In this document: piece by piece, positions 13,358-42,829 of the stretch
Numbering within the stretch: the first letter of the stretch is position 1
Layout: each line of letters begins with the position of its first letter
From: Chthonomonadaceae bacterium
GTDB lineage: Bacteria; Armatimonadota; Chthonomonadetes; Chthonomonadales; Chthonomonadaceae
Direction of reading: 5' to 3'
DNA length: 64,000 bases
NCBI GenBank assembly: GCA_027450145.1
Contig: DAIDKH010000011.1
Location: forward strand, 1 to 64,000
Notes under the pieces: generated by a model
Seen by the model: only the letters and a program-made list of their open reading frames with translations
Databases searched by the model: none
Told to the model about the DNA's origin: nothing
Translations under genes and position numbers: made by a program

Positions 13358-14330
13358 GCTGAGATGGAACCCCACATTGGACGAATGGGTGGTGACTGCA
13401 ACGCACCGCCAGGACAGAACATTTTTTCCTCCGCCGGACTACGACCCGCTTGCACCTACGAAACCGGGTGGCTTTCCTACCGAAATACCAGCCCCTGCCT
13501 ATGAAATTGTGGTGTTTGAGAACAAGTTTCCTTCATTCCGGCCAGAGCCCGCGGAACCCTCGGTGCAGGGATCAGTTTTGTACCCCGTTCGTCCGGCAAA
13601 CGGAGTATGTGAAGTCGTCTGTTACACATCCGCTGCGGACGCCGAGCTTGCTAACATGCAGCCAGCCAAGCTGCGCGAGCTTGTACGAGTGTGGGCAGAC
13701 CGCTTTAAAGCTCTGGGTGATAGGCCGTACGTAGATTATGTTTACATCTTTGAGAATAAAGGTAAGGAAATCGGAGTTACCTTACCCCACCCGCACGGTC
13801 AGATCTACGCATATCCCTTTGTCCCGCCCATTCCCGCGAAGGAAGTTGCAGCAGCCCGTGGCTACGCTGCCCGCACAGGCCGTAACCTGTACGATGACAT
13901 TATTGAGCGTGAATCTAATGACGGCCATAGAGTTGTTTGGCGCAACTCGTCCTTCCTTTGCGTTGTGCCCTTCTACGCGCGTTACCCGTACGAAGTACAC
14001 ATCATTGCGATTAGGCCTCACACTTCACTAAACCAGATGGGGAGCGTCGAACTAAACGACCTGGCGGAGGCGCTGCGTGTAATAGGACAGAAATACAATG
14101 CGCTCTGGAACAAATCACTACCTTATATCATGTTGATGCATCAAGCTCCTACAACGGGTGCCAACTACGAGGAGTATCGATTCCACGTGGAGTTTTATCC
14201 CCCTTATCGCACACCAGATAAGTTAAAATACCTTGCAGGCAGTGAAGCTGGGGCAGGTGTGTTCATTAACGACACACATGCCGAGGACACGGCAAAAATC
14301 CTTCGGGATACTGCCCCACTTCAGTCGTAA
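13350..14330 (+). CDS. galT: Galactose-1-phosphate uridylyltransferase
   Basis: Leloir-pathway enzyme that exchanges UMP between UDP-glucose and galactose-1-phosphate, giving UDP-galactose and glucose-1-phosphate. It is a HIT-superfamily protein of 326 residues. The active-site motif HPHGQ occupies residues 147-151 within LPHPHGQIYAYPFVPP, with the uridylylated histidine at 149. The N-terminal RWNPTLDEWVVTATHRQDRTFFPP and the C-terminal EEYRFHVEFYPPYR are typical. No galK or galE is adjacent, so the rest of the pathway is encoded elsewhere. The gene converges with the next one, leaving only 10 bp. Confidence 0.94.
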   Translation: MSELRWNPTLDEWVVTATHRQDRTFFPPPDYDPLAPTKPGGFPTEIPAPAYEIVVFENKFPSFRPEPAEPSVQGSVLYPVRPANGVCEVVCYTSAADAELANMQPAKLRELVRVWADRFKALGDRPYVDYVYIFENKGKEIGVTLPHPHGQIYAYPFVPPIPAKEVAAARGYAARTGRNLYDDIIERESNDGHRVVWRNSSFLCVVPFYARYPYEVHIIAIRPHTSLNQMGSVELNDLAEALRVIGQKYNALWNKSLPYIMLMHQAPTTGANYEEYRFHVEFYPPYRTPDKLKYLAGSEAGAGVFINDTHAEDTAKILRDTAPLQS

Positions 14331-14340
14331 TATTGTTTCG

Positions 14341-14997
14341 CTAATCCTGAAAATCTCGCGGTGTATCTACCTCTATGTGACCGTTGGCGTACAATATGAC
14401 AGTTTTACGATCTTCGTACTTGCCATCGCCATGCGGAAATGAGAGCAGTTTGAACAGTGCCTGCCGTCCCGCTTCAGTGTTCTGCGGTGGGATGGCTACG
14501 CTGGTGTTCATGGGAGCACCAGGCTTCTCTATGATGAGGACGAGAGCATCCGGAGGACATATCTGCTTCGTCGTATTCTTACTGGGAATGAAGCTGGACG
14601 TTGGATTGAAGTCATATCCGGCGGCCAACGAGTTATAGACATATCCTATCTCTCGACCGCTGCCCGGGCCATGAAGGTAAGACATTCTTCCACCGGGTTG
14701 ATCCGATGCGGAAGGCAGTTCAGCAGCAACACAATCCGACCAATGATCTACCGGAGGTAATTTGCCCTCCCAATCTAGTGCATATTCTCTAAACGCCTTG
14801 TAAATTGCTGCCTCGTTGTCCTTTGCAATAACGATATCCCGTTGTGCCTTGAAGCCCAGGAAAACGTGGTACGCCCCAAAAATAACAGCTGCACTCACGA
14901 TAATTACGAAGAAAAGGCTAATCCTGCTAAGTTGTCTCTGACCCAAGCCAAGCCTAACGGTTGCACGCGGCTTTGATGGGCCAAGCAGAGAGAACAT
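14341..14997 (-). CDS. Membrane-anchored protein with pseudopilin-like architecture, unknown function
   Basis: A 218-residue protein with one N-terminal transmembrane helix (about residues 27-48, RISLFFVIIVSAAVIFGAYHVFLG) and a globular remainder outside the membrane. It has no prepilin GFTLIE cleavage motif. The segment after the helix (AIYKAFREYALDWEGKLPPVDHWSDC) and the late DGKYEDRKTVILYANGHIEV resemble the DUF1559/type II pseudopilin C-terminal layout, in which the sequence ends with a displayed-date or growth-of-grid type beta segment. That resemblance is only architectural. The start is ATG 14997, with AAAGGTGG nine bases upstream. It may form an independent transcript. Confidence 0.6.
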   Translation of the reverse strand: MFSLLGPSKPRATVRLGLGQRQLSRISLFFVIIVSAAVIFGAYHVFLGFKAQRDIVIAKDNEAAIYKAFREYALDWEGKLPPVDHWSDCVAAELPSASDQPGGRMSYLHGPGSGREIGYVYNSLAAGYDFNPTSSFIPSKNTTKQICPPDALVLIIEKPGAPMNTSVAIPPQNTEAGRQALFKLLSFPHGDGKYEDRKTVILYANGHIEVDTPRDFQD

Positions 14998-15101
14998 GTA
15001 AATGCCACCTTTCACACGCCACACAGATATGATTATGCGTCTGCATAATCTACGTCGGTTAGATTAGTGGGCGTTCCCGATCAAGATTGGAGACGTTCGT
15101 C

Positions 15102-17186
15102 GTGCTAAACCTCGCCCAGCAAGAACAGGTTCTTCGAGATTTCATATCCATGTTAATGGACGAGGACGTTCAGCTGATCTATAGTCAATACACCGGCCAA
15201 CCAGCAGACGACAATCTAGACGCCGAGTTTAGATGTGCACGACTCGCAACTATTATGACACGGGCCGAAAGCACCAGGACAGTCCTCGCTACGCTCGACA
15301 TCGCCTCGTTGACAGTGCTCGCTTGCATTTGTGCGGCGATACCTTGTAACGGCGGTATTTTAGAGGAGTCGGCGTTATCAATTATTTTGAACCCACTAAG
15401 CAGTGAAAATGCAACCCTTGTGCTTGGCTCTCTAACGAATTGCATCTTGCTCGTACCGGTGCACGGCGGTTACATGGTGCGGTATTCGGTTTGCCAGGAA
15501 ATAAAGCACTTTATTCAACTTCCGCTGAGCCTATCCGACATCGTGCAGACGAAAGGCAGCGGACCGTCCTACATTGATGTTCAAGGAAATGTGTTTTCGG
15601 CCAAATCGGGTGCAGAAATATTGCAAAATGCAGGGAATCTGTTAGCCCATGATCGAATTGGGGCCGAGACCACAGACTTAATCAAATTGTTGTTGTCAAA
15701 CGGCGGAGTAATCCGCGCTAATGAGTTACTACAAATAGATTTATGCTTCACAAGCTCGTCGCTCATTTCACTTGACGCACTTGTTCCTGGTGCCCGACAA
15801 CTGGCTTGCGAAGGCATCCTTTTGCCAATTATGGATCACGGGCGACTAGTTCAATTCGTACTGCCCGGCGAGGCTGCTGCAACACTCTACATACCAGTGC
15901 ATTGCGAGGCTTTTGCGCTCGATGTACGCGCAATTGAGACCCTTGAAGGCGAGGTGGCACGTGAAGAACGCCATACCACCCTCCGTGAAGACATGGCGGC
16001 CTTTTTAGCCGCAGTTGTGATATCTCGGGTGACAGCCACGCAGAAAATGGAGATGAGTCGTTTAGGAGTTAAGCGCGCAGCAAAGCGTGCGAATCTGCCA
16101 ACCAATAGGTATCTGGATTTTATTCAGACTCTGGCAGAAGAGCTTCAACTAATAAAAGTTAATGAAAATAGCGGGTTCGTTGAGCTAGCAGTTAACGGTC
16201 AACATTGGCTTACCCTTAGTTCACATCGGCAGCAGATGGAGCTTATTGACGCATGGTTAGACAGTCGGGAGCTTTACGAATATGCCGATGCGCACGGCGA
16301 GAGAATGCCCGCGGGGTATTCCTCCCAGTGGACCCGGGCAATCCGTTACACGTCATGTTGGGAGCTGCTAGGTGGATTGAAAGCAGGCGCGATTACTCCT
16401 TCTATGTTCGCTCATTTTCTCGCATGGCGCATACCAGCCGCAGCCAAGCTGTTCGTTGGCCGACCTAACTACAACGACGAAAATGGCCTGCAAGTATTTG
16501 CAGAGAGGCTGATTACCGAATCGATGTTCTGGTTAGGATTGTTGAAGCAGGTTGCGGTGAAGCTATACGATCAGGATGGACCATACGATAAGTTAGTTAC
16601 CGCTTACACCTTAGACACTTACGGCTACGACTTAGTCGAGACGGATTATATGGCAGGCGACGGTGAAGTTAGTTCGCAAATGGATCATTGCATCCTTCTG
16701 GGAAATGGGGAGCTTATTGTTCCACCAAATTTGCCTACCGGGAACCTTTTTTCACTCTTATTCATATGCGACCGCCGTCCAAACTCCCGCACACTCCAGA
16801 TTACGCGCAATTCACTGCGCCATGCGTTTTCTGTAGGTCTCAGCAATGACACTGTACGCTCAATCCTTAAGAGTTGCGATGTTACGGAAGTGCCACAGGC
16901 GATTGACTTCCTACTAGACGAATTATGGGAGCAGCAGCGACAATGCAGCATAGGTACAGCGTCGGTATACATCTCCATAGAATCCCAAGCTACTGTAGAT
17001 AAGCTGATGGAAACCGATGCGCTACACAGTTTCGACCCTGTACGCATCTCCCCAACCGTGCTAATACTGCGCGCCGGTAACAAATTGGAAATACGAAAGG
17101 CACTTACGACATTAGGTCTATTGGCGCGAGATAACGATGAGTTAATTGCGTCTATAGACTTTTCTAAAGTCTGTTCAAAAACCTGA
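15102..17186 (+). CDS. XPB/Ssl2 N-terminal-domain-like (Helicase_C_3) protein without helicase motor
   Basis: A protein of about 694 residues, mostly helical and probably cytoplasmic. The C-terminal third contains LGNGELIVPPNLPTGNLFSLLF followed by LQITRNSLRHAFSVGLSNDTVRSIL and PQAIDFLLDEL. This is the pattern of the helicase-associated XPB/Ssl2 N-terminal domain (PF13625-type) found in stand-alone bacterial proteins. No Walker A or DEAH motif is seen, so it is not itself a helicase. The start is likely GTG 15102, with GGAG 9 bases upstream; TTG 15087 is an alternative. The partner, perhaps a separate XPB-type helicase, is not in this window. The gene is monocistronic by spacing. Confidence 0.55.
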   Translation: MLNLAQQEQVLRDFISMLMDEDVQLIYSQYTGQPADDNLDAEFRCARLATIMTRAESTRTVLATLDIASLTVLACICAAIPCNGGILEESALSIILNPLSSENATLVLGSLTNCILLVPVHGGYMVRYSVCQEIKHFIQLPLSLSDIVQTKGSGPSYIDVQGNVFSAKSGAEILQNAGNLLAHDRIGAETTDLIKLLLSNGGVIRANELLQIDLCFTSSSLISLDALVPGARQLACEGILLPIMDHGRLVQFVLPGEAAATLYIPVHCEAFALDVRAIETLEGEVAREERHTTLREDMAAFLAAVVISRVTATQKMEMSRLGVKRAAKRANLPTNRYLDFIQTLAEELQLIKVNENSGFVELAVNGQHWLTLSSHRQQMELIDAWLDSRELYEYADAHGERMPAGYSSQWTRAIRYTSCWELLGGLKAGAITPSMFAHFLAWRIPAAAKLFVGRPNYNDENGLQVFAERLITESMFWLGLLKQVAVKLYDQDGPYDKLVTAYTLDTYGYDLVETDYMAGDGEVSSQMDHCILLGNGELIVPPNLPTGNLFSLLFICDRRPNSRTLQITRNSLRHAFSVGLSNDTVRSILKSCDVTEVPQAIDFLLDELWEQQRQCSIGTASVYISIESQATVDKLMETDALHSFDPVRISPTVLILRAGNKLEIRKALTTLGLLARDNDELIASIDFSKVCSKT

Positions 17187-34065: not shown

Positions 34066-36171
34066 ATGGAACACGCTTCGGATGTTGAACCGCATTTGGA
34101 TAGTGGTTCGCAGCGATTGATATCATCTGTCGTTCAGATGTCGGGTGCCTCTACACCGGGATTATACCACTGGCTTCTGGCTCTCCTTTCACAGCATTCT
34201 GATCTCACCGAGGCTCTCACACCCTACCTTCGAGCCCAATCGTTAGCCTTGGAGCTTCAGGGTAAGCTTGGCCAGGGCAGAACCGGAGCCCTTGTCTCTG
34301 TACCCGTGATGGAACACCGCGCCTATCGACAGGCACTGGCTGAGGGACGGGCGGTCGCGACTGTGCAGGATATTGCCGCAGCAATTCTGACTTCCGCAGG
34401 CTACCAGCTTCAAGCGCTGCCACAGTACGAGACCAACCACCCTGACACGACTGGAATTGAGACCTTGAAGCGGTTGGGCAGATGTCTCACAACGGAAGCG
34501 CATGAACAGCGGTTGACGCCAATTGTTGGCCGCACAGAAGAGCTTCAACTAGCCATGGAGACGTTGTGCCGGCAAACCAAGCGTAACCCAGTTTTTATTG
34601 GCCCGGCAGGTTGTGGCAAAACCGCCATTGTGGAAGGCCTTGCACAACGCATTGCATCAGGTGCATGCCCGGCAGCCCTCCGTACCGCTCAAGTGTGGGC
34701 CATAGACCCAACTGCGATAATGGCGGTCGCTCACCATCAATCCGACTTCCACAAGCTTGTGCAGCAGCTTATTGCCGAAGCCAGTCGTCCAGATGTAATT
34801 CTGTTTATCGACGAGGTACACCAGCTTATCGGCATGGGTGGCGCAGCGGGTCAGTCCGATCTTTCAAGCCTGCTGAAACCCGCGCTAGCACGAGGGGAAT
34901 TGGCCTGCATTGCTGCAACGACAGACGAAGAGTACCGAAAGTTTATTGAGCCAGATGCCGCACTCGAACGTAGGTTTCAGCCAATCCGAGTTCAAGCACT
35001 TACAGCTGCACAAACGCTGCCAGTATTAGTAGAACGATGCACGCTGATATGCAGGGGAACCTCCACGAGAGTAGAGCCACATGTGATCCAGCACCTCCTT
35101 GATCTTGCTGACAACCATATGCGAAACCGTCAGTTTCCAGATAAGGCGATCGATTTACTAGAACAGAGCATTGCTCACGTACTCGCTCTAAACCGAACTG
35201 AAGTTACCGATCGTGATGTGGTAGAGGTGTTGCAGCGAATGGTGGGGATGCCGCTCGGGCTTGAGGCAGGCTTGGACAGCTTGCGACTGACGCTGCAATC
35301 CGAGAATATCCTAACTCACGACGCCATTTCCAGCCTAATGCATAGGCTCAAGATTAGTTTAAGCGGTCTTGATATGCGGCCAGAACGGCCGAATGCCACC
35401 TTGTTATTAACAGGCGAGTGCGCACACCGCGCGTCCCGGTTGGCGGAAGTTATCGCCGAGAATCTGTTCGGTGCCGCGGACCGTGTGGTTACACTAGATT
35501 TCGGGCGCATGGTTGAACCGCAAGACGTAACACTGCTGCTGGGAGCGCCTCCGGGTTATGTTGGTTACAGCGAAGGCCTTACAATTCACAGGTTATCGCA
35601 GATGCCGTGGTGCGTGCTCTATTGCCAGAATATTGACGTATGCCACTACACTGTACGGGATGTTGTGTTACGCGGTATTAAATCAGGGTTTCTTACAGAT
35701 GCACGTGGGAAGAAGCTCTATTTAAGTGACACTGTTCTATTGTTTACTGCCGAATCAATTGGCGACGAGCCACAGCCGATCGGCCTGCTGGGTAGAACTG
35801 CAGATAAGGAGAAGAATGGACCGCGCCAGGTCATAGCCAGCGTTCTAGGTGATGATTTTGCCGCACAAATGGACGATGTTTTTGCCCATGTACCACAATT
35901 GGAAGTAGAAACTAACACAGGTGCCATTGAGCGAATGCTCCAAAATGTATCGCAACGGTGTACGATGCATGGAATAACGCTAACCTGGGACCACTCCTTC
36001 ATTAGCTGGATTGTAGATAAGCAACGCGTTGCCGCACAGCAACGCGATTGGGAGCGCGCCGTAGAAGAATCACTGGCAGAAATACTAAGTCCCTACATTG
36101 ACGCGACAGACGACTGCTGCATCACGATCACTTGTCGCGATGGCGAGCCCATCGCGATGCGCCAATCGTAA
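34066..36171 (+). CDS. Clp/Hsp100-family AAA+ protein with partly degenerate ATPase domains
   Basis: A 701-residue ClpA/ClpC-like protein: N-domain (about 1-130), D1 (about 145-380) and D2 (about 400-690). D1 has Walker A GPAGCGKT (179-186), Walker B ILFIDE (Asp249, Glu250) and the arginine-finger ERRF, but the pore loop K-Y-R-G-(D/E)-F is HHQSDF (223-228). D2 has lost the Walker A lysine (GECAHRAS, Ala456) and the Walker B acids (Gln521, Asn522), and a Gln replaces the usual RN(R) finger. Yet the pore loop GYVGY (497-501) and an IGL tripeptide (572-574), aligned with the ClpP-docking loop of ClpA, remain. It converges with pafA 24 bp away, suggesting a link to protein degradation. Confidence 0.85.
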
Positions 36172-36195: not shown

Positions 36196-37671
36196 CTAAC
36201 CCACCCCTCTCATAAACCTAGAAACCTCTTTTTCGTAAGTGTGAAACGGGTTCTTAAGATCCAGCTGGCGATTGCGTTCAATGTAGATGGCATCCCAATC
36301 GATTACGTAACGCGTTGTGGGGCTGTTGATTAACTGAGAGATAACTTGACCGCGGCCCAGGGCCCTCGTGTTGCACGGCGGCATATTAAGCGCCTCCTCA
36401 ATCTCGCGGTCAGTCGTCAGCCTTCCCAGGGCCCCACTGTTTTCCAATCCATAACTCAGTCCCTGCGCAGGGTGGATATTATGGTATTCCAAATCGAGAC
36501 TCTGCATAACATCGTCGCCCCATGCGGCACCTGTTTCCGCCATGTATTGACTATATAGAACATATTTAGCCGACCAGTCGAGACGATCGCTGGTCGACAG
36601 CGGATCACGTTCCAGGTCATCTAGTATTCGTTCCCACTGCATTAGAACATTGTCCGTTTGAGCATCCTTGCGATGCAGGTATTTTTTGGCAGCGTCAAGA
36701 TATCGTCGCTGAAGATCTATCGCCCTAATAGTCTTACCACTCTTAAGTTTCACAATCCATTTAAATGAGCTGTCCCGTGAAACCGACCGCAGGACATTCA
36801 GTGGTTCATCAAGTTCTACATCAGGAGGCGCACAACCTTCCTCTATGAGATCCAGTACAAGGCTGGTGGTTCCCACCTTCAACAACGTAGCGTACTCACT
36901 CATGTTGCTTTCGCCAAAAAGCACGTGCAGACGATGTAGATTTGTGTACGAATAGTACGAGTCCCATTTTGGATTAATAATGGCGCGATTGAAACGAACT
37001 CTTGAACTTACAGTTTTCACTATGTGATCGGCTCGTTGTGAAAGCTGAAAGTCTACAGACTGATCAATTTCAACACCGTAGAAATTGGAGACCCACACGT
37101 AATCGACTTCGTGATCTCCCATGGTCATGATGTTATTCTTGCTATTTGGGCGAACGAGCTTGTGACCGCCAACTCTGCCAATGCCTGCATAAATTTGCCG
37201 TGTAACCAGAAACGGCAGGAGGTCGGTAATGGCTTCGGAGAACAGTCGATCTTCGATCTGGACTAAATAGTTTTCATGGCAACCGAAGGTATGCCCGCCG
37301 AAGTGATCAATACTGTTGTTATGGAAACTGACGGCTTCCGCAAGCCCCAAATCCTCGACAAGGCGTGAGAGCATTATCCGCCCGGCGCGATCATGGTTAA
37401 CAAGATCAATAAGGTCGGTACATTCCGCGGTAGCGTACTCCTCGTGGCTACCAACGGCATCCACGTACAGCCGTCCACCGTTACGCAGAAATCCGCCTGC
37501 CCGAGCCGGTTCAAACGCGTAATCGCGGGCATGTAGGTCGATGACGCCTAGCTTTTTGGTGTAGAATGCCTCGTCCTTAACGAGTTCTACAACCTCTTCC
37601 GGCGAGCCCACCGAGGGATCGCGCACCATACAGCCAAATTCAGTTTCGATACCGAAAATGCGTTTATCCAT
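36196..37671 (-). CDS. pafA: Pup/UBact ligase PafA
   Basis: The ligase that phosphorylates the modifier's C-terminal glutamate and joins it to a lysine of a target protein. It is a carboxylate-amine ligase (glutamine-synthetase-like) of 491 residues. Family segments are RIFGIETEFGCMV, NGGRLYVDAVGSHEEYATAEC (the Asp is the proposed general base), HNNSIDHFGGHTFGCHENYLV, FLVTRQIYAGIGRVGG, LSQRADHI and NLHRLHVLFGESNMSEYATLLKVGTTSLVL. The Dop-type loop is absent, which identifies it as PafA and not the depupylase. It is last in the locus. The motif usually GSHPEYATAE reads GSHEEYATAE here. Confidence 0.92.
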   Translation of the reverse strand: MDKRIFGIETEFGCMVRDPSVGSPEEVVELVKDEAFYTKKLGVIDLHARDYAFEPARAGGFLRNGGRLYVDAVGSHEEYATAECTDLIDLVNHDRAGRIMLSRLVEDLGLAEAVSFHNNSIDHFGGHTFGCHENYLVQIEDRLFSEAITDLLPFLVTRQIYAGIGRVGGHKLVRPNSKNNIMTMGDHEVDYVWVSNFYGVEIDQSVDFQLSQRADHIVKTVSSRVRFNRAIINPKWDSYYSYTNLHRLHVLFGESNMSEYATLLKVGTTSLVLDLIEEGCAPPDVELDEPLNVLRSVSRDSSFKWIVKLKSGKTIRAIDLQRRYLDAAKKYLHRKDAQTDNVLMQWERILDDLERDPLSTSDRLDWSAKYVLYSQYMAETGAAWGDDVMQSLDLEYHNIHPAQGLSYGLENSGALGRLTTDREIEEALNMPPCNTRALGRGQVISQLINSPTTRYVIDWDAIYIERNRQLDLKNPFHTYEKEVSRFMRGVG

Positions 37672-39323: not shown

Positions 39324-39512
39324 CTACTGCCCACTCCGCTGCCTGTACCGTCGAGCAGCGTCAGGATCCACGCGTCGCATTCGCTTCAGCAAATCGCTGG
39401 TATCAGGTCGCTTCACATCGGGTTCCGACGGCCCGCCACCGTCTCCCTCTTTCCTCACAGGGCTCACAGGGGCTACTGGCGCCTGCCTTCTCTCTTCTCC
39501 ACTAATCATCAT
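39324..39512 (-). CDS. ubact: UBact, Pup-like protein modifier
   Basis: A 62-residue, intrinsically disordered-looking modifier. The N-terminal half is Gly/Pro-rich, a charged DLLKRMRRVDPDAARR helix follows, and it ends RYRQRSGQ. The conserved RYRQR(S/T)G(E/Q) ending identifies the UBact family described for Nitrospirota, Armatimonadota and others. The C-terminal residue is Gln, so it must be deamidated to Glu, probably by the adjacent Dop, before PafA can attach it to lysines. Its own lysines are at 21, 34 and 43. GGGAGAGAG precedes the first of two adjacent ATGs. It lies between dop and psmB, the classic pup position. Confidence 0.93.
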   Translation of the reverse strand: MMISGEERRQAPVAPVSPVRKEGDGGGPSEPDVKRPDTSDLLKRMRRVDPDAARRYRQRSGQ

Positions 39513-41047: not shown

Positions 41048-42829
41048 TTAGATTATGTTTCGCGATGTTTCGTTAGCTGAACGGCGCGCCTTCACCGGCT
41101 TAACTGTAGCCACATTGTCGGGTTCATAATCCAGTAGTTTCAACCAATCCTCCTGGGAATCACCCTTTGGAAATATTTCATTCTCCTTGTACTCAACCCT
41201 TATTGCAGTCTGAAGGTCTTCTATGCTTATACCTTCCTCATCGGACTTGAGTTCTATGGAGCGCTTGATAGCAAAGTCCTTTGCGCGCTCGACAACCGAT
41301 TTAATGAGCGCACCGCTAATAAGATCCTTCCAGTACAGCTTTTCAGTTCCGCCGTTCCGCAGAAAAACTTCGAGGAACTCGGTCTCGTGCACCCTGCGAT
41401 AAGTAAACTCGGTTATGGCATCCAGCATCTCGTCCATAACAGACGTACAATCACCACGATGCTTCTTGATTAAGTTGTGATCAATAGGTACATCACTAAG
41501 GTAGATGCGGAAGATATCGCGAGTAGCCCGCCGATCCGGCCGCACGACTTTTACCTTGCGGTCTATTCGTTCAGGGCGCAGGATGGCCGGATCAATATAA
41601 TCGGGTCGGTTGGAAGTGAGCATAACGACAACATTTTCCAATGAAACCAGCCCATCCATCTCGGCGCAAAATTGTGGCACCAGCGTGTTCGAAATGTTGA
41701 GATATCGTCCACTGCTCCTGGTTCGCAATAAGGACTCCGCCTCATCAATAAAAATGAATACGAGCCTTCCCTCGCGCGCTTTTTCACGTGCCTGGTTAAA
41801 GATATCGCGAACCTGCCTCTCGGATTCGCCAAGCCACATGTTCAGGATTTTTGGCCCGTTGATGTACATAAAGTACTCTGTTACGTCCTTGCCTGTACGC
41901 TCGCGATATTCTTGAGTAAGATTATAGGCTGTTGCCTTACCAATAAGCGTTTTGCCGCATCCTGGAGGTCCAAAAAGCAGGATTCCCTTTAGCGGCCTCT
42001 TTCCAAATCGAGCAAAGAGCTCTGGATGCAGCAGAGGGAGTTCGATCGCATCCCTGATAACGGAAATAGCCTCATCCTGCCCGCCAATCTTGCTCCACGG
42101 AAGGACCGGAACTTCCTCAAGATAGTAGTCGGACGATTCCTTGGCAGGAAAATACTCAAGCGCAACCTTGAAATTTGGTTCCATTCGAACTTCTGAACCA
42201 ACCTTCAAGATTTCGCTTTTAAGTGCTTCACCGCGGTAAACAACACGGGACTGAGTACCCTGGGAATCGAGTGAAACGCGCAGTCGACCATCCTCAAGCA
42301 CCTCGATGATTTTGACGATGGGACCACCTTCTGCGCATCCGAGATCGCCAATAACTGCAAAAGCTTCGTTGACTTTAACTTGGGTACCGGCGTGAAGCTC
42401 AACGTTCTCCATTCTGGGGTCTACGTTGGCAATATACTCCTGATCACCCAGTGCTATGCGAACGGTTTGTGCTTTCTCCTCCGGTTCGGCAAGCAGAGAT
42501 GACCGCCGGCGGGTCCTAGGCTTGGGTGGATCGGCTTTGCCCAAATAGACCGCAATTTTGTTCGCCGGTGCGGTCAGTTTGTTGTACGCGTCTTCAAACT
42601 CGGCAATCACCTTGCGGGCCTCATCCATCATGGCCTCATCCGTCTCTATCTGCTCACGCAAGGTTAGAAGATAGCCCAAACGAGCATCGTTGCGTGGCGT
42701 CATCCTAATGACCTCATCCAAAATCCACAGCGCTCTAAGCTGCAGTTCGGGCTGAGAAGCAGATTGCGGCTCGTTTAGTTCGCCAGCATCATCATCATTG
42801 GAAGAGCGGGTGTCTCGGTCTCGTTTCAT
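41048..42829 (-). CDS. arc: Proteasome-associated AAA+ ATPase ARC/Mpa
   Basis: A hexameric unfoldase that would capture tagged proteins through its N-terminal coiled coil and thread them into the 20S particle. In 593 residues there is a coiled coil (about 25-90), tandem OB folds (about 120-235) and one AAA+ domain with Walker A GPPGCGKT (287-294) and Walker B FIFIDEAE (Asp362, Glu363). The MWLGESERQVRDIF segment and the arginine-rich ERIDRK follow. The chain ends TSRNII and not in a hydrophobic-Tyr-X motif, the usual 20S-docking tail. AGGAGAT precedes the ATG, so the locus is read from here. Confidence 0.93.
   Translation of the reverse strand: MKRDRDTRSSNDDDAGELNEPQSASQPELQLRALWILDEVIRMTPRNDARLGYLLTLREQIETDEAMMDEARKVIAEFEDAYNKLTAPANKIAVYLGKADPPKPRTRRRSSLLAEPEEKAQTVRIALGDQEYIANVDPRMENVELHAGTQVKVNEAFAVIGDLGCAEGGPIVKIIEVLEDGRLRVSLDSQGTQSRVVYRGEALKSEILKVGSEVRMEPNFKVALEYFPAKESSDYYLEEVPVLPWSKIGGQDEAISVIRDAIELPLLHPELFARFGKRPLKGILLFGPPGCGKTLIGKATAYNLTQEYRERTGKDVTEYFMYINGPKILNMWLGESERQVRDIFNQAREKAREGRLVFIFIDEAESLLRTRSSGRYLNISNTLVPQFCAEMDGLVSLENVVVMLTSNRPDYIDPAILRPERIDRKVKVVRPDRRATRDIFRIYLSDVPIDHNLIKKHRGDCTSVMDEMLDAITEFTYRRVHETEFLEVFLRNGGTEKLYWKDLISGALIKSVVERAKDFAIKRSIELKSDEEGISIEDLQTAIRVEYKENEIFPKGDSQEDWLKLLDYEPDNVATVKPVKARRSANETSRNII

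Follow-up and report, generated by a model that had tools for sequence, protein, structure and literature searches.

The window analysed here, a stretch of 64,000 nucleotides, contains a gene for a Clp-type AAA+ protein of 701 aa (bp 34066-36171 on the forward strand, from the ATG at 34066 to the end of the stop codon at 36171). According to an earlier note on this DNA, each of the two ATPase rings of this protein has lost what the other has kept. This raises the question whether the gene is decaying, whether it belongs to the proteasome locus next to it, or whether it encodes a working machine in which only one ring is powered.

Organisation of the gene and its product

In profile searches the window protein obtained about equal scores with the ClpA, ClpB and ClpV models, all far below the curated cut-offs (316.7 bits with the ClpA equivalog TIGR02639, cut-off 993; 314 bits with the ClpB model, cut-off 1232). 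The nearest solved sequences and folds are those of ClpC, ClpA and ClpB. Based on these comparisons, the gene can be assigned to the two-ring Clp proteins (class I Hsp100), in which it represents a distinct Armatimonadota family that we have designated F1.

The AF2 model (mean pLDDT 81.6) consists of a six-helix N-domain and two AAA+ modules. The N-domain (residues 1-125, bp 34066-34440, six predicted helices) is probably of a diverged Clp_N (double-repeat) type; it has no Pfam Clp_N match, and profile-profile comparison relates it at 92% to canonical Clp N-domains and at 98.5% to the N-domains of a second family, F2, described below. The first AAA+ module, D1 (residues 126-375, bp 34441-35190), is predicted to be active, has the ClpB/ClpC D1 fold (Z 25-27) and is 41-44% identical to solved ClpB D1 domains. 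The second module, D2, including the C-terminal lid (residues 378-701, bp 35197-36168), is predicted from the alignment and the orthologue table to be incapable of ATP binding and hydrolysis. It keeps the ClpB D2 fold (Z 23.5 to 4fd2, 4.6 A across 289 residues) at an identity of about 25-30% to canonical D2 modules. Alignment and AF2 model both place no M-domain in the window protein, D1 passing directly to the D2 linker (residues 375-405).

Complementary losses in the two rings

Motif positions were taken from an alignment that included ClpA and ClpB of E. coli as well as the ClpC and ClpB of the same genome, and the motifs were counted in 15 full-length F1 orthologues (G000, G001, G003, G005, G010, G018, G024, G027, G029, G044, G057, G062, G206, G220 and G230). 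All features of the gene given below lie on the forward strand. In D1, Walker A (GPAGCGKT, residues 179-186, bp 34600-34623, with K185 and T186), Walker B (LFIDE, residues 246-250, bp 34801-34815, with D249 and E250) and the arginine fingers R302 and R303 (bp 34969-34974) are intact, and the catalytic Lys, Thr, Asp and Glu and the arginine fingers are present in 15/15 orthologues. The pore-1 loop, normally of the KYRG type, reads HHQS (residues 223-226, bp 34732-34743), with H224 at the canonical tyrosine position. At that position Tyr or Phe occurs in 0/15 orthologues, an aliphatic residue in 9/15 and His in 2; the residue after it is His or Trp in several. The motif calls for D1 in the earlier note were thus borne out, but its description of this ring as working without gripping was too strong, because a hydrophobic residue is often kept in the loop. 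A division in which one ring burns ATP without grip and the other grips without burning ATP is still something that we infer.

The losses in D2 concern Walker A, Walker B, sensor 1 and the arginine finger. The Walker A relic (GECAHRAS, residues 450-457, bp 35413-35436) has A456 in place of Lys, which is found in 0/15 orthologues, and contains no invariant column. The Walker B relic (LYCQN, residues 518-522, bp 35617-35631) has Q521 and N522 for Asp and Glu, the catalytic Glu being absent as well (0/15). Both replacements had been noted before; the alignment adds the arginine finger, with Q601 at its position (bp 35866-35868; Arg 0/15), and the sensor-1 Asn, with Glu at position 563 (Asn 0/15). 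Counting the Walker A Lys and Thr, the Walker B Glu, the sensor-1 Asn and the arginine finger, none of these residues occurs in any of the 15 orthologues.

Two elements of D2 were said to be kept, and both are. The pore-1 loop GAPPGYVGY (residues 493-501, bp 35542-35568, with GYVGY at 497-501) has Y-V-G in 15/15 orthologues, among which five invariant columns fall within this 9-residue segment (hypergeometric P = 7e-5). The tripeptide IGL (residues 572-574, bp 35779-35787) lies at the position of the ClpP-docking loop and conforms to xG[LFY] in 15/15. ClpA, ClpC and ClpX use such an xG[L/F/Y] loop for docking ClpP. The loop is also present in two degenerate paralogues of genome G220 and in F2, and is missing from E. 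coli ClpB. It sits in a variable region in which a few F1 members have weaker tripeptides (TGY, AGF), and the surrounding residues 568-584 are of low confidence in the AF2 model and probably disordered.

Alignment with ClpA, ClpC and ClpB therefore showed every motif call of the earlier note to be correctly placed, and its main claim, complementary loss in the two rings of one protein, to be correct and conserved across the 15 orthologues. As judged from these motifs, the ATPase site of D1 is complete and D2 lacks the elements for ATP binding and hydrolysis.

Distribution and selection

F1 was searched for in relatives and in 291 genomes of the phylum, and was found in 17 of the 291, belonging to seven families (f1, f3, f17, f25, f32, f36 and f43). 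A single contig scan beyond the phylum returned ordinary Clps in overwhelming numbers because of the pore-loop pattern; the counts apply to Armatimonadota, and F1 may occur elsewhere too. This patchy spread, together with the lost catalytic residues, would fit a paralogue heading towards a pseudogene. However, the conservation of the changes in homologues, which the earlier note had proposed as a check, gives a different picture: the catalytic residues are present in 15/15 orthologues in D1 and in 0/15 in D2, and the same losses are accompanied by the same retained residues in full-length proteins from several Armatimonadota families. No internal stop codons were found in the F1 genes from the relatives and the phylum search. 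A comparison of two species of the genus of the window gave a nonsynonymous divergence of 0.05 for D1 and 0.056 for D2, against saturation at synonymous sites, so both rings are under purifying selection, which is strong in the dead D2. Conservation and selection rule out a decaying gene, a reading to which we assign next to no probability.

A second family with the opposite ring inactivated

The phylum search yielded 14 proteins of about 690 aa, all from family f29 (loci L157-L170; G177-G194), which we have designated F2. The 11 proteins that were aligned have a dead D1 (GVGRR as Walker A, E-P for D-E in Walker B, deletion of the pore loop, and Lys for the first arginine finger) and a fully intact D2. 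The dead D1 of F2 is under purifying selection (omega 0.07-0.17) and is modelled with a confident AAA+-like fold. F1 and F2 never occur in the same genome in the set of 291.

The two families have a signature in common, a one-residue insertion ahead of the D2 Walker A position (LDxRPERPN; residues 435-444, bp 35368-35397 in the window), which in a comparison across Clps was present in 26/26 F1 and F2 proteins and in 0/99 canonical Clps. The corresponding DNA pattern matches 26/291 genomes, and 23 of these 26 matches are F1 or F2; of the other three, two fall outside any Clp-like ORF and one is next to an ordinary Clp without the insertion. This pattern search of 291 genomes found no intermediate that carries the insertion with both rings intact. 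F1 and F2 also have ten rare residues in common (0-2 for every other pair of groups), and their N-domains match each other better (hhalign score 92.8, E 2e-15) than either matches canonical N-domains (46.7 and 61.8), with a near-identical helix layout in the models. In a careful tree F1 and F2 were joined outside the canonical Clps (100/98), and each alone also attached outside; an alternative tree with F2 on the canonical side was not rejected (AU p = 0.09), and both families form long branches. Because the insertion, the rare residues and the closest N-domains are common to both, F1 and F2 are probably sister families, of which the tree alone is no proof.

The neighbouring proteasome locus

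The F1 gene of the window lies 24 bp (between the stop codons) from a convergent gene for a pafA-type Pup/UBact ligase (bp 36196-37671, reverse strand), as the earlier note had stated. Profile searches confirmed that the Pup/UBact locus is real. The window also encodes ARC (bp 41048-42829) and contains a 62-aa ORF (bp 39324-39512, reverse strand) with the C-terminus RYRQRSGQ, flanked by dop and the gene for the proteasome beta subunit, which is probably the UBact/Pup modifier of this locus; the ORF has the appearance of such a modifier.

An F1 protein acting as a partner of the proteasome in the Pup/UBact system would explain this position, which recurs, convergent and at 24-26 bp, in two species of the genus of the window (G000 and G001; in the third species, G002, the contig is truncated). 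Outside this genus, no genus that allows a judgement has F1 beside pafA. G003, a complete genome of one contig, carries F1 at 1.738 Mb and the pafA/dop genes at 2.61 Mb, 0.87 Mb apart, and in G010, G018 and G027 the F1 gene and the ligase gene are on separate contigs, with the F1 gene far from the contig ends. No Pup ligase was found in G044 and G057, though both have the F1 gene, and the ligase is common in relatives both with and without F1. Convergent genes, moreover, do not form an operon, and none of the aligned F1 proteins has a C-terminal GQYL/HbYX-like proteasome-docking motif. The linkage to UBact loci, whose constancy the earlier note had proposed as a check, thus fails. F1 is not a general proteasome component, a role that the lack of conserved linkage rules out as a general one, and a proteasome partnership of any kind seems very improbable.

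Genes linked to F1 in other genomes

In three families a gene for a TY-Chap1 protein (PF22551, above the cut-off) immediately follows F1 on the same strand, with a 3 nt gap in G027, a 2 nt gap in G062 and an overlap in G260. The TY-Chap1 family search located these TY-Chap1/YbjN proteins of 146-147 aa at L039:7505-7948 (-), L177:1393-1833 (+) and L174:2057-2500 (-), and each of the three genomes has only one or two genes of this type. One study (PMC9503650) relates the TY-Chap1 family to type III secretion and YbjN peptide-binding chaperones. In some lineages the TY-Chap1/YbjN protein, whose gene appears to share an operon with F1, is likely to be an adaptor of F1. The adaptor idea covers part of the F1 family only, since no TY-Chap1 match was found in the window's own genome and a search for conserved neighbours gave none for most F1 genes. 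A neighbour comparison with a simple ORF caller returned a small unexplained protein common to two F1 loci.

Genome G220 (C24) contains two extra F1 paralogues of 791 and 778 aa (L171:7302-9677 and 14068-16404). Both keep the D1 site and the xGF tripeptide and have lost the D2 GYVG pore loop, and three YbjN-domain genes lie among them. Directly downstream of F1 in G024 a 197-aa protein is encoded (L043:7309-7902) with a borderline YbjN score (21.8 vs 22), and G038 encodes a 750-aa two-ring Clp (L050:7855-10107) with an N-terminal extension, just over the YbjN cut-off, in the place of Clp_N; hhalign gave no support for kinship of either with the TY-Chap1 proteins. Further Armatimonadota Clps of 777-820 aa, apparently with both rings intact, are encoded in G044, G048 and G036 (L047, L048 and L049) and form long branches outside ClpA/B/C.

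One full-length ClpP was found in each F1 genome searched, except for two in G220 (G002 was outside this search). A special ClpP paralogue as partner of F1 was considered and rejected: apart from the extra copy in G220, F1 genomes have one ClpP like their relatives.

Discussion

The reading that we prefer, tentatively, is that F1 would be a D1-driven, low-power partner of ClpP, a homohexamer with a passive D2 collar. Its hexamers would be held together and moved by D1, while D2 would touch the polypeptide and seat the hexamer on the single ClpP of the cell. F1 might then open ClpP, or feed it loosely folded or adaptor-delivered substrates, and would not unfold stable proteins; in some lineages the TY-Chap1/YbjN peptide-binding protein would deliver the substrates. 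D2 is the main motor in ClpA, and low power is expected because this ring is off in F1 and the weaker motor is kept. A homohexamer would fit better than a mixture with a partner with active D2, since the D2 arginine finger has been lost along with the Walker motifs. Against a D1-driven ClpP partner, the loss of the D2 pore loop in the two G220 paralogues indicates that this loop is dispensable in some copies, and threading might not happen at all without a strong D1 pore residue or a D2 motor.

F1 could instead be a remodelling chaperone or scaffold independent of ClpP, in which ATP hydrolysis in D1 drives movement of the N-domains, the sole task of D2 is to keep the hexamer together and the IGL-like loop is a leftover. 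NSF would be the model for this; it has one inactive ring, which still binds ATP, whereas the D2 of F1, its Walker A gone, is not expected to do so. The loss of the D1 pore tyrosine, by which N-domain motion may outweigh threading, and the fact that F1 genes do not adjoin clpP speak for such a chaperone, and Pex1/6, too, combine an active with an inactive ring (PMC4490564). A purely structural D2 would, however, have no need of the invariant Y-V-G of its pore loop, and the docking-loop tripeptide persists in all 15 orthologues and even in the degenerate paralogues, so that we regard this as unlikely, though not very much so. More doubtful still is a role as a regulatory subunit that would join ClpC hexamers and dampen their D2 motor. 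The window's genome does encode ClpC- and ClpB-type proteins, as do the relatives among the matches listed, and a subunit with neither Walker motifs nor an arginine finger in D2 would shut down the D2 sites next to it. A mixing subunit would, however, be expected to keep its D2 interface; the D2 of F1 has diverged to the low identity given above and F1 has no M-domain, and F1 occurs in few genomes, canonical Clps being general.

As a D1-driven ClpP partner or otherwise, F1 resembles ClpA and ClpC in the order N-D1-D2, the fold, the D1 ATPase motifs, the D2 GYVG pore loop and the IGL/LGF-type loop; it differs in having no ATPase site in D2 and no pore tyrosine in D1, and from ClpC also in having no M-domain. 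With ClpB/Hsp104 it has the two AAA+ rings in common, but the coiled-coil M-domain is missing, the docking loop is present rather than absent and D2 is inactive. Mpa/ARC and Cpa, the proteasome ATPases, are AAA+ proteins like F1, which has neither their OB domain nor a C-terminal docking motif, nor a conserved proteasome linkage. AAA+ proteins with one dead ring are already known outside the Clp family. NSF and Pex1/Pex6 (type II AAA) have, like F1, one ring active and one silent, but do not belong to the Clp family, and Pex1/6, with D1 dead, matches the arrangement of F2. In Pex1, D1 has neither Walker B nor arginine fingers nor a pore aromatic (PMC4490564). The plant SMXL/D53 proteins, atypical Clp ATPases, likewise put the Clp architecture to non-standard use; in both D1 and D2 they have kept the Walker motifs, and they are without the IGF/L motif (PMC9133912), whereas F1 has lost the D2 Walker motifs and kept the IGL-type loop. 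The literature found, which covers the field in part, describes neither a bacterial Clp in which a dead D2 is conserved nor a mirror pair.

Taken as a whole, the following course of events is conceivable, if less probable than the ClpP partnership of F1 by itself. An ancestral Armatimonadota Clp may have given rise to sister lines in which opposite rings were shut: F1 would have become the ClpP partner driven by D1 alone, with D2 as a passive gripping and docking collar and, in several lineages, with a TY-Chap adaptor, and F2 would have kept D2 as its main motor behind a passive D1 entry ring without a pore loop.

What is known of the roles of the two Clp rings comes from engineered mutants, mainly those of ClpA, and in F1 and F2 such mutants have natural counterparts, kept by selection. 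As a mirror pair within one phylum they could show if D1 alone can drive a Clp machine, and F1 could show whether a passive D2 collar suffices to hold and open ClpP. The operon-like link to F1 gives TY-Chap1/YbjN, a family of largely unknown function, a possible role as adaptor. For the organism itself, F1 raises the question why a cell with an ordinary ClpC, ClpB and ClpP keeps such a protein.
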